DNA from: Ignavibacteria bacterium RIFCSPLOWO2_12_FULL_56_21
GTDB lineage: Bacteria > Bacteroidota > Ignavibacteria > UBA10030
NCBI GenBank assembly: GCA_001802945.1
Contig: MHAK01000124.1
Span: 1-45,703, forward strand
DNA: 45,703 nucleotides
Reading direction: 5' to 3'
Below the pieces are notes generated by a model. The model saw only the letters and a list, made by a program, of their open reading frames with translations. It searched no databases and was not told the origin of the DNA. Positions 9,100-11,445 of the stretch are shown one piece after another. A program made the translations under genes and the position numbers. Position 1 is the stretch's first letter, and each line of letters opens with the position of its first letter.

Positions 9100-10107
9100 T
9101 CAGCCTTCGCCTCGTCCGTCGGTCTGCTCGGCGGTCGTGAAAAGTTCGGATTTGTCGACCGGAACAATGCCAACTTCACCGCATACAATCCCCCCGGCAA
9201 TATTTGCGAGCGCGGCTGCCTCCTTGACGGTAGCTCCGGCGGCAAGAGCGACGGTCAGTGTGGACACCACGGTGTCTCCTGCACCCGATACGTCGGCCAC
9301 ATGTCTGGCATGTGTCGCCACTCGACTCACTTCGCCGGAATGCTCGAACAATGCCATGCCTTGCTCACCCATGGTCAGGAGCACGTTGTCCGCCTTGAGC
9401 CTTTCCAAGAGAATTTGTCCTGCCTTCTCGACCTGTGCAGGATCCGTAAGTCGGAAGCCAAGCGCCTCTTCGGTCTCCTTGCGGTTTGGCTTGAAGACCG
9501 TCACTCCAGCATATGCGAAGAAGTTGTTCGATTTTGGGTCAACGGTTATGATCTTCTTCCTCTTGCGGGCAAGCCGGATGGCGTTGTCCACAAGCGGTCC
9601 GGTCAATACACCCTTGTTGTAGTCTTCGAGAATAATTCCGTCCAGACGGTCAAGTTCTTTCGAAAGGAATTCGAGTAATCTTCTCTGCACGTCGTCGTCG
9701 ATATCGCGCTTGACTTCTTCGTCGATCCGCACGACATGCTGATGATGCGCAATTACACGTGTCTTGATCGTCGTCGGTCGAGTGGTATCGGTCAACACAC
9801 CGTCTGTAGGGAACTTGAGCTGCTCCATCGTCTTGCGGAGCAGAGTCCCTCCGGCGTCTGAGCCCACGACGCCGATAAGAATCGGTGTTCCGCCGAGAGC
9901 GGCAATGTTGTTCGCGACATTTGCCGCGCCGCCAAGCCTGGAGGATGTTTCATCCACTTCGACGATGGGGACGGGTGCTTCCGGGGAGATTCGGGTCACC
10001 GTTCCCCAATAGTAGCGGTCAAGCATCAAGTCGCCTATGACGGCAATGCGCTTTCCGTCAAACGCCTTAAACAAGGCCTTGAGCCTAGAAGAGTCAAAGC
10101 TTACCAA
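9100..10107 (-). CDS. rfaE1: D-glycero-beta-D-manno-heptose-7-phosphate kinase
   Basis: 335 residues, PfkB/ribokinase-fold kinase (RfaE domain I, HldA-like) that phosphorylates heptose-7-phosphate at C1 in ADP-heptose synthesis. Visible features are the N-terminal IAVIGDLMLDRYYWG motif, the GGAANVANNIAALG substrate-binding motif, NRKE, and the C-terminal VSGAGDT motif with the catalytic aspartate. The likely start is a TTG at 10107: an AAAGG Shine-Dalgarno sequence lies 7 bases upstream, and a promoter-like pair of boxes lies a little further up. It is the first gene of the minus-strand cluster rfaE1-rfaE2-tamB-rnr-peptidase. Confidence 0.94.
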   Translation of the reverse strand: MVSFDSSRLKALFKAFDGKRIAVIGDLMLDRYYWGTVTRISPEAPVPIVEVDETSSRLGGAANVANNIAALGGTPILIGVVGSDAGGTLLRKTMEQLKFPTDGVLTDTTRPTTIKTRVIAHHQHVVRIDEEVKRDIDDDVQRRLLEFLSKELDRLDGIILEDYNKGVLTGPLVDNAIRLARKRKKIITVDPKSNNFFAYAGVTVFKPNRKETEEALGFRLTDPAQVEKAGQILLERLKADNVLLTMGEQGMALFEHSGEVSRVATHARHVADVSGAGDTVVSTLTVALAAGATVKEAAALANIAGGIVCGEVGIVPVDKSELFTTAEQTDGRGEG

Positions 10108-10171: not shown

Positions 10172-10509
10172 CCAAAGGATAGTATTCAAAGGACATCATA
10201 AATCCATTGTGCAGGACATAAAATAGTGCTCCCAATCCTTGTCCTCCGGGCACTATACGAGCTCACCGGGGAATGTAGTCGCTCTCTTTGTGTGATGAAG
10301 CTTGCGAAATGAATTCGAGCCAATCGAACGAATGTCCGTGTATGATGGCGCACTGGCTTTCGGCACGCGCGTGACCTGCAGAACAGGACTAACACGTTCG
10401 GCCGTCCGTTCGCTTTGGAGGTATGTGATCCGATCGTCATGATCTTGCACAGAAGGAGTCGCGGCCATCGGTCGTGATGGAATTGTGCAATACAAGGGAT
10501 GAGACCAAT
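10172..10509. other. Intergenic region without a recognised gene; contains one inverted repeat
   Basis: No convincing coding region is seen on either strand between the rfaE1 promoter and the small ORF at 10510. The one clear structure is an inverted repeat with arms 10223-10231 and 10248-10256 (ATAGTGCTC / GGGCACTAT, one G-T pair, 16-base loop). Read on the minus strand it is followed by TTTTATG, so it could be a weak terminator for leftward transcription. The rest is unassigned. The long minus-strand open frame across this region also runs antisense through the tRNA and has no recognisable domain. Confidence 0.5.
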
Positions 10510-10629
10510 ATGTTGACGGCGAATAACGCTGAGAATTGGCGAAGTAAGGCTGAAACTGCCGTATGGGGAACAATCTTCCTTGTAATTCAGGCCTTTGGTG
10601 CGTATCTTACAGTCTCGGCGAACAATTAG
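10510..10629 (+). CDS. Candidate small single-pass membrane peptide (39 aa)
   Basis: A 39-codon ORF starting at ATG 10510. It has a polar N-terminus with NAENWRSKAE, a roughly 20-residue hydrophobic stretch (AVWGTIFLVIQAFGAYLTV) flanked by charged or polar residues, and a TAG stop at 10627-10629. The stop lies inside a strong hairpin followed by a T-tract, as expected for a short monocistronic gene. An in-frame ATG at 10477 would give 50 residues. Neither start has a well-placed Shine-Dalgarno; AAGGG lies 11 bases before 10510. No family is recognised. The case rests on the membrane-like profile and the terminator; chance remains possible. Confidence 0.4.
   Translation: MLTANNAENWRSKAETAVWGTIFLVIQAFGAYLTVSANN
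10580..10608 (+). promoter_or_regulatory. Candidate promoter upstream of tRNA-Leu
   Basis: TTGTAA (10580-10585) and TATCTT (10603-10608) are separated by 17 bases. Predicted transcription would begin around 10615, at the foot of the hairpin just before the tRNA. The boxes lie inside the candidate small ORF, so one of the two readings may be coincidental. Confidence 0.35.
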
Positions 10630-10651
10630 TCTCGCCGAGATTTCTGTTTTT
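10613..10651 (+). terminator. Rho-independent terminator-like hairpin abutting tRNA-Leu
   Basis: A perfect 9-bp stem (TCTCGGCGA at 10613-10621, TCGCCGAGA at 10632-10640), a 10-base loop and a T-rich tail (TTTCTGTTTTT, 10641-10651). It ends one base before the first base of the tRNA at 10652. It would terminate the small ORF upstream. Alternatively it is a leader structure of the tRNA transcript. Confidence 0.75.
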
Positions 10652-10738
10652 GCCCAGGTGGTGGAATTGGCAGACACACTAGATTCAGGGTCTAGCGCTT
10701 GCAAGAGCATGCAGGTTCGACTCCTGTCCTGGGCACCA
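10652..10738 (+). tRNA. tRNA-Leu(CAG), CCA encoded
   Basis: An 87-base class II tRNA. The acceptor stem GCCCAGG (10652-10658) pairs with CCTGGGC (10728-10734), followed by A and an encoded CCA (10736-10738). The D-arm holds TGGTGGAATTGGCAGACAC, as usual for tRNA-Leu. The anticodon stem CTAGA/TCTAG encloses loop TTCAGGG with anticodon CAG, which reads CUG. A long variable arm and a GGTTCGACTCC T-arm are present. Confidence 0.97.
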
Positions 10739-10800
10739 AACAGCGAAGAATGCAGATGATACACAGTGGATTTGAAAGGCTGCAGAGAGCGATGGCCAAG

Positions 10801-10828
10801 AAGGCGGCTTCGGAAGAGGCCGCCTTTT
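10801..10828 (+). terminator. Rho-independent terminator after tRNA-Leu
   Basis: The stem AAGGCGGC (10801-10808) pairs with GCCGCCTT (10819-10826), with a 10-base loop and a TTTTGTG tail. It lies about 60 bases after the tRNA 3' end and is the natural end of the tRNA transcript. The remaining 130 bases before the next gene show nothing else. Confidence 0.75.
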
Positions 10829-10959
10829 GTGTTCCGTTATGGAGAACTCTACCAACCTCCGCGCGATTCTCAAGGGGGAATCTGCATGATGTTCTTGAAA
10901 GCTTGCGCTTCAATTCGCACAGCTGTCCCACTATGTTGAACACCACCCGGACGAACCTC

Positions 10960-11445
10960 ATGAACACAAGCCCGATTTGTCGCAGCCATATCTTCCTCAT
11001 CTGTACAACCCTGGTAGCCATCGGTGTCATGACCGGATGTACGAAGACCCAATATGCTGTCGTCAGACCCCAGAGTGTTCCTGTAGATTGGAACATCAAA
11101 ATGGAACGCTCCCCCGGAATCATGCGGTGCACAATCGACGACAAGGCAGTCATTGAGGCCTCCATTTCCATCGCCGCAGCCAACAGAGTCACAAGCGAAT
11201 TCGGCGTCATGATGGTTGAAGATACGACACGACATATCGATGAAACCATCACGTATCAAGGAAAAGCAGTACGCATGTTGGGATATTGCGAAATGGTTGA
11301 CGCAGGTCTCCAAGGTTGGCAATTTTACTATGAAATATCGATCTATGTGGAAGGCGAGAAAGTTGCGGTATTCGATTTTGACAAACAATTTGACACGAGG
11401 AAGAAGAACCCCGGATATTGGTCTCGGATAGGGGTCGATGAGTGA
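10960..11445 (+). CDS. Hypothetical lipoprotein
   Basis: About 161 residues from ATG 10960. A type II signal peptide (residues 1-27) ends in a lipobox-like VMTGC, so the protein is probably acylated and held in the envelope. The mature part is mostly beta-like with no family I recognise; it has several aromatic residues in the second half (WQFYYEISIYVEG). An in-frame ATG at 10933 would add nine residues. The frame is open further upstream through the tRNA, which is not coding. It is followed, with an alternative start overlap at 11438, by a second lipoprotein, so the two may be co-transcribed. Function unknown. Confidence 0.6.
   Translation: MNTSPICRSHIFLICTTLVAIGVMTGCTKTQYAVVRPQSVPVDWNIKMERSPGIMRCTIDDKAVIEASISIAAANRVTSEFGVMMVEDTTRHIDETITYQGKAVRMLGYCEMVDAGLQGWQFYYEISIYVEGEKVAVFDFDKQFDTRKKNPGYWSRIGVDE

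Follow-up and report, generated by a model that had tools for sequence, protein, structure and literature searches.

Results

Within the window (the whole stretch of 45,703 nucleotides that was analyzed), a gene for tRNA-Leu(CAG) is directly preceded by a hairpin and a T-tract (Table 1). The neighboring kinase gene, which presumably is rfaE1-like, served as the anchor for comparing the locus among relatives.

Table 1. Features of the tRNA-Leu(CAG) locus, numbered along the window
Feature	Position	Strand	Basis
PfkB-family sugar kinase gene, divergent, synteny anchor	9100..10107	-	PF00294, 141 bits
39-aa ORF overlapping promoter and hairpin, probably no gene	10510..10629	+	No relatives, no Pfam match
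-33-type promoter box, TTG	10580..10582	+	TTG-N20-TAnnTT model, 19.2 bits
-7/-10-type promoter box, TATCTTAC	10603..10610	+	Same TTG-N20-TAnnTT model
Predicted transcription start zone	10612..10617	+	Inferred from box position
9-bp hairpin with 10-nt loop, 5′ end of tRNA leader	10613..10640	+	Sequence, folding, stem scan
T-tract, 9 T in 11, touching the tRNA	10641..10651	+	Sequence; tail score 3.1
tRNA-Leu(CAG), 3′ CCA encoded	10652..10738	+	ARAGORN; Rfam
Terminator-like hairpin 3′ of the tRNA, likely transcript end	10801..10826	+	Stem scan; -19.2 kcal/mol, tail score 3.3

The arms of the focal hairpin, TCTCGGCGA (10613-10621) and TCGCCGAGA (10632-10640), form nine pairs around the loop (10622-10631, 10 nt), all of them perfect and six of them G-C. 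The T-tract that follows, TTTCTGTTTTT (10641-10651), is broken by a C and a G. The hairpin thus has the stable, G+C-rich stem of an intrinsic terminator and a T-run immediately 3′ of that stem, though the run is interrupted. The stretch 10611-10651 folds at -17.5 kcal/mol (z -4.58), which none of 200 dinucleotide shuffles equalled. The energy of the hairpin itself varies from -15.4 to -17.5 kcal/mol with the ends taken and is -16.8 kcal/mol when an extra G-U pair is included, a value inside the range of the T-tailed downstream hairpins of this genome (-12.1 to -20.7). Its tail score lies just under the range for the six T-tailed hairpins that were listed 3′ of tRNAs in this genome (3.2-4.3).

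A scan for perfect stems of at least 7 bp followed by at least six T in 11 nt found two sites on the forward strand of the window, the focal hairpin and the one at 10801-10826, and none on the reverse strand. Ten simulated strands yielded 0-2 such sites each, and 9-bp stems in none. A standard terminator scan reports neither hairpin because its loop limit is 8 and both loops have 10 nt. The sequence-only reading had described a perfect 9-bp hairpin and T-tract abutting the 5′ end of a tRNA-Leu, and this is confirmed by the sequence, ARAGORN, Rfam (an RF00005 match at 10652-10735), folding and the stem scan. The feature is real and had been placed correctly. The focal tRNA gene encodes its 3′ CCA, and, with gene ends as set by ARAGORN, a CCA end was found in 7 of the 43 tRNA genes listed for this genome.

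The 39-aa ORF ends inside the hairpin loop. A search of 99 other genomes gave no relative at E ≤ 0.1, and Pfam gave no match. It does not qualify as a leader peptide with cognate Leu codons, as it overlaps the promoter, has 3 Leu among its 39 residues and lacks relatives. Several ORFs listed on both strands of 10186-11445 cross the tRNA gene or begin inside it, so their starts are not credible. By eye, a shorter, lipoprotein-like gene 3′ of the tRNA is possible within 10699-11445.

The promoter was predicted with a model built from other tRNA genes. For training, 239 stretches upstream of tRNAs were drawn from this genome and from relatives, leaving out the focal gene, and TTG-N(19-21)-TAnnTT ending 3-22 nt 5′ of the tRNA was present in 37 of them, with a spacer of exactly 20 in all but one (36/37). 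The two-box search and the resulting TTG-N20-TAnnTT model replaced a de novo EM search for a promoter box, whose motif was uninformative. Among 91,324 window positions on both strands, the site at 10580-10610 has the top score, its 19.2 bits matched by no other position and reached by none of 2000 random stretches with the composition of the upstream region. This puts the predicted start near 10612-10617, at the hairpin's foot, and upholds the candidate boxes of the sequence-only reading with a model drawn from tRNA genes elsewhere in this genome and in relatives. By this prediction the hairpin should be part of the leader of tRNA-Leu(CAG), lying between the gene's own promoter and the gene and at the 5′ end of the primary transcript, and the polymerase would have to read through the hairpin to make the tRNA, as had been proposed. 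A start just before 10652, which would have made the hairpin only the end of an upstream transcript, has no promoter support, since the next-best score within 10560-10650 is negative. PMC7366714 gives the Bacteroidota primary promoter as TAnnTTTG at -7 and TTTG near -33. A like TTG-N20-TAnnTT(TG) occurs at the tRNA promoters in this genome and in relatives, whereas the focal -7 box ends in AC rather than TG.

The focal stem is, on the sequences compared, not conserved as a sequence. A search for exact matches gave one copy in its own genome, and the hairpin is absent at tRNA-Leu(CAG) of the same-genus genome G001. Judged by eye, the G001 locus has a promoter box near a partial tRNA 5′ copy; palindromic inserts come next, then a GIY-YIG ORF, then the intact tRNA. 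The kinase gene is paired with a divergent tRNA-Leu(CAG) in 4 of 80 public kinase loci (L078, L080, L085 and L087; ARAGORN calls, some loci being short). Conservation of the junction, which the sequence-only reading had proposed to check, was borne out in part: another hairpin stands right after the promoter in two of these four syntenic loci (L080 and L087, with the same letters as L299 and L302, respectively), none was found in L078, which is of the same genus, or in L085, and the stem sequence is not common to them. This different hairpin, CCCCGCTGATGAAGCGGGG, lies 8-9 nt past the promoter box at Leu(CAG) of G003 (L299), G012 (L302) and G025 (L301), and 5′ of a Leu-like 5′ end without an ARAGORN tRNA call in G027 (L300/L203). 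The T-runs after it are short, TTTT in L299 and TT in the other three, with tail scores of 1.8-2.8. The search for CCCCGCTGATGAAGCGGGG also returned a further G025 copy, located where a contig ends (L303), and, in G018, a match with two mismatches (L298) whose locus has no tRNA. Partial tRNA-Leu 5′ copies broken by palindromic inserts lie 5′ of the intact tRNA-Leu(CAG) in L080, L085, L186, L195, L202 and L208 and, by eye, occur in several genera.

Terminator-like hairpins recur at tRNA promoters across the family of the source genome. We counted them strictly (an energy of -9 kcal/mol or lower, a T-tail score of at least 2.5 and a start 2-15 nt after the promoter box) at promoters with long leaders, meaning 24 nt or more, in an incomplete family sample with Leu genes from up to 32 genomes and other tRNAs mainly from G000, G001, G004, G012 and G022. 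The focal genome has such a hairpin at 5 of 15 long-leader tRNA promoters (Leu-CAG, Phe, Asn, His and Gln-TTG), against a shuffle expectation of 0.00. As a test of the pattern, the tRNA genes of G004, G012 and G022 were fetched; here the count is 7 in 30 with 0.30 expected, the seven including a secG leader (L321) and a repeat (L324) of a G012 gene already seen as L210. G001 has one in six, with 0.10 expected. Pooled over the family loci fetched, the count is 21/87, with 0.5 expected from dinucleotide shuffles; independent origins are fewer than 21 because orthologues were counted separately, and the nine tRNA types include one (Lys-CTT) represented solely by two secG leaders (L254 and L321) with the tRNA-Lys about 400 nt downstream. 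In the same pool, Leu-like 5′ ends without an ARAGORN call have the hairpin in two of four cases, and promoters without a tRNA in 2 of 38. These two are the putative secG promoter, L313, and L303, whose letters are those of a Leu leader (L094) that continues into a Leu 5′ end.

The position of these hairpins is locked to the start. When the limit on start position was lifted, 18 of 23 T-tailed hairpins between promoter and tRNA (85 promoters) began within the interval 0-13 nt past the box. This interval yields a rate of 15.9 per 1000 positions, compared with 0-2.8 further downstream and 0.4 upstream of the promoter, and the T-runs adjoin the stem even where the tRNA is 77-370 nt away. Both the excess and the start-locked position are thus features of the family's tRNA promoters as sampled here. 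An earlier count gave 13/57 tRNA promoters against 3/74 others (Fisher p 0.002), the three others being L300 and L219, with Leu-like tRNA 5′ ends downstream, and L303, with the letters of L094. The same comparison was not significant within G004, G012 and G022 (7/30 against 1/13, p 0.40), the focal genome (5/15 against 0/4, p 0.53) or G001 (1/6 against 0/4, p 1). Because other promoters are few in these per-genome sets, the shuffle expectation is the informative control there.

Leaders are also unusually structured. Where the box lies 28-100 nt before the tRNA, z falls below -2 in 16 of 41 leaders (two of which contain another tRNA and a few of which come from other families), and in 2 of 41 controls of equal length upstream of the same promoters (Mann-Whitney p 4.6e-6). 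This analysis, with the promoter model and matched controls, supersedes a first test in which 12 of 34 leaders had z < -2.

Individual genes illustrate the arrangement. At tRNA-Asn of the focal genome, the promoter is followed by the hairpin ACCCACGA..TCGTGGGT, by TTTTCTT running into letters of the tRNA 5′ end, and then by an insert and the intact tRNA. At its tRNA-Phe and tRNA-Gln(TTG) genes three nucleotides separate the box from the hairpin, and the T-runs are 6 and 4 nt long, respectively. Stems are kept and loops changed among orthologues of Gln-TTG in three genomes and of His in two. In the Leu(TAG) leaders of ten genomes, each of nine base-anchored stem positions shows at least two pair types; these hairpins were chosen because they pair, and the positions, being anchored at the stem base, are putatively homologous. 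The stem ATCCTCA/TGAGGAT is common to six of the ten, and one of the Leu(TAG) leaders (L236) falls short of the strict energy limit. Two Leu(TAG) leaders, L225 and L400 from G021 and G026, form a nested hairpin with pair-keeping changes between the two species, from G-U to A-U in one outer pair and, by eye, from A-T to G-C in one inner pair.

The feature is not strictly confined to tRNA genes. The putative promoter of secG, a gene that we name from its sequence as read in L254, has an immediate terminator-like hairpin, ACCCCAA..TTGGGGT, with a T-run (L254, L313 and L321), and tRNA-Lys(CTT) lies downstream in L254 and L321. A locus from another family (L412) has a short C/G hairpin and T-run at the place of the secG-leader hairpin. 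Among 80 public kinase loci, 1 of 70 non-tRNA promoters carries the hairpin; this is L094, which runs into a Leu-tRNA 5′ end. Nor is the feature universal: of the 87 long-leader promoters, 66 do not have it, and at another 44 promoters the leader is too short to accommodate it. Outside the family, none was found at 11 long-leader promoters in G033, G040 and G041 (30 of 133 tRNA places fetched), and none at eight in L005-L032 (28 loci, four of them from the family itself).

Small GIY-YIG nuclease ORFs adjoin tRNA genes on the same strand in G000 (contigs C99, C25, C12 and C91) and in L078 (3084-3488). In the focal genome, five of seven GIY-YIG matches lie 16-152 bp from a tRNA gene (Pro-CGG, Asp, Leu-CAA, Ser-GCT and Asn), while 2/8 in G001 and 2/9 in G022 are near one. 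At tRNA-Pro (the L059 region) and at tRNA-Leu(CAG) of G001, the order is promoter, partial tRNA 5′ copy, GIY-YIG ORF and intact tRNA, which resembles what a homing-like element would leave on inserting into the tRNA gene and restoring it.

Discussion

The hairpin and T-tract may be a minimal promoter-proximal terminator that attenuates transcription of tRNA-Leu(CAG), a reading to which we give about an even chance and in which termination or pausing, and any regulation, are what we infer. The two elements would form a 5′ leader of about 35-40 nt in the primary transcript. With RNA polymerase starting at the hairpin's foot, the earliest stretch of RNA would fold into a stem-loop like that of an intrinsic terminator, followed by a U-rich run. 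Some fraction of polymerases would stop or pause at the T-tract and release a short RNA. The remainder would read through, make the tRNA and stop at 10801-10826. RNase P, which is expected to remove the leader at the mature 5′ end of a tRNA, would then cut it off. Control, if there is any, would act via the polymerase or a factor.

Attenuation, one of two suggestions in the sequence-only reading, remains our preferred mechanism, given that terminator-like hairpins are found repeatedly at predicted transcript starts among the family's tRNA genes. Its two-state form does not fit. Predicted folds show the same hairpin and no competing antiterminator structure, and an antiterminator helix would lack space because the hairpin begins at the predicted start, leaving no upstream RNA to pair. 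The T-box covariance model had no match, with the tRNA alone reaching the Rfam gathering score in the window. The lack of space for an antiterminator, of a credible leader peptide and of a T-box match makes a classical switch a poor fit for the focal gene. Strong termination ahead of a tRNA that the cell needs would come at a cost, except where the terminator is weak or is relieved. Both the break in the focal T-tract and the lack of the hairpin in G001 argue against a strong switch that is essential at tRNA-Leu(CAG).

The main rival, which we consider unlikely, is that the hairpin is a structured 5′ leader that terminates nothing. It would cap the precursor, serving stability or the presentation of the start site or RNase P site, and the T-rich stretch would be a single-stranded linker. 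The excess of structured leaders agrees with this, as do leader hairpins with little or no T-run, such as those of Gly(GCC) L037 and Leu(CAG) L302, and the E. coli pre-tRNA-Tyr is the best precedent for it. However, the T-runs adjoining the stems far exceed the shuffle expectation and are locked to the start, and a mere cap needs neither. The predicted cost of the native tRNA stems is 2.91 kcal/mol with or without the focal leader, against 3.03 +/- 0.56 with shuffled leaders (D-stem not enforced), which also speaks against this rival. The leader has no effect on the predicted fold that would make it an insulator of the tRNA, and the processing signal that the sequence-only reading had suggested alongside attenuation found no specific support, as the leader neither aids nor impairs that fold.

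The remaining explanations fare worse. There is a slim chance that the hairpin is a functionless relic, for example of the palindromic inserts that break partial Leu(CAG) copies in relatives at this locus. Such copies do exist, but any tRNA likeness of the focal upstream region is not significant, its score being reached in 24 of 300 shuffles (for the downstream region, in 239 of 300), and a relic would not account for a start-locked position that recurs across tRNA types. It is very unlikely that the hairpin terminates an upstream transcript, such as that of the 39-aa ORF (10510-10629), and touches the tRNA by chance. The hairpin is terminator-shaped and the ORF ends in its loop, but we rejected the ORF as a terminator's client on its lack of relatives in 99 other genomes and of a Pfam match, and on the tRNA's best promoter lying upstream of the hairpin. 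The nearest recognized upstream gene is on the other strand and runs away, and terminator-like hairpins cluster immediately past tRNA promoters, with few upstream of them. A start site is a usual place for an operator, and the palindrome sits at the predicted start, so that it could be a DNA site where a repressor of tRNA-Leu(CAG) binds. This is highly improbable given the T-run after the stem on the RNA-sense strand, the other sequences found at other tRNA types and the single exact copy in the genome, which led us to reject an operator within a regulon.

Attenuation by a promoter-proximal terminator, the reading we prefer, has relatives among known systems. Like trp-type attenuators, T-boxes and riboswitch leaders, the focal leader has a terminator-like hairpin and T-run between promoter and gene. 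It differs from them in that the hairpin is at the predicted start with neither leader peptide nor antiterminator helix, the gene encodes a tRNA rather than an mRNA, and no Rfam leader family reaches its gathering threshold. The E. coli tyrT leader sequence that we used as a query, which has a 7-bp hairpin at its 5′ terminus, was found at 80% or more query coverage in 5373 of 5426 E. coli genomes, and tRNA-Tyr is annotated under four of the five matches listed. We know of no report that the tyrT hairpin is a terminator, and it differs from the focal one in lacking a T-run. The likeness is that of a tRNA precursor with a long 5′ leader that, in the query sequence, opens with a perfect hairpin. 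For pre-tRNA-Tyr, PMC11143913 gives a leader of 41, later 43 nt. The 3′ ETS-leuZ of E. coli, a tRNA spacer that serves as a sponge according to PMC7815308, resembles our case in that the spacer of a tRNA transcript can itself be a small RNA, but its spacer is 3′, and for the focal leader no such RNA or target is known. Among the open-licence papers searched, none described terminator-like hairpins at the start of tRNA transcripts in its title or the beginning of its abstract, which is weak evidence of absence.

More tentatively, and at clearly less than even confidence, several single tRNA genes of the family may each carry a minimal attenuator, made of a terminator-like hairpin and a U-run, as the very first RNA. 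Supply would then be set gene by gene through early abortion of transcription, with no antiterminator helix or leader peptide, and some of the hairpins would have been rebuilt with a new sequence while their position stayed locked to the start. Accounts of bacterial tRNA levels usually invoke promoter strength, gene copy number and processing. If our proposal is true, a terminator-like element at the start site would add a control point between initiation and elongation at several tRNA genes, and short leader RNAs may arise as by-products.
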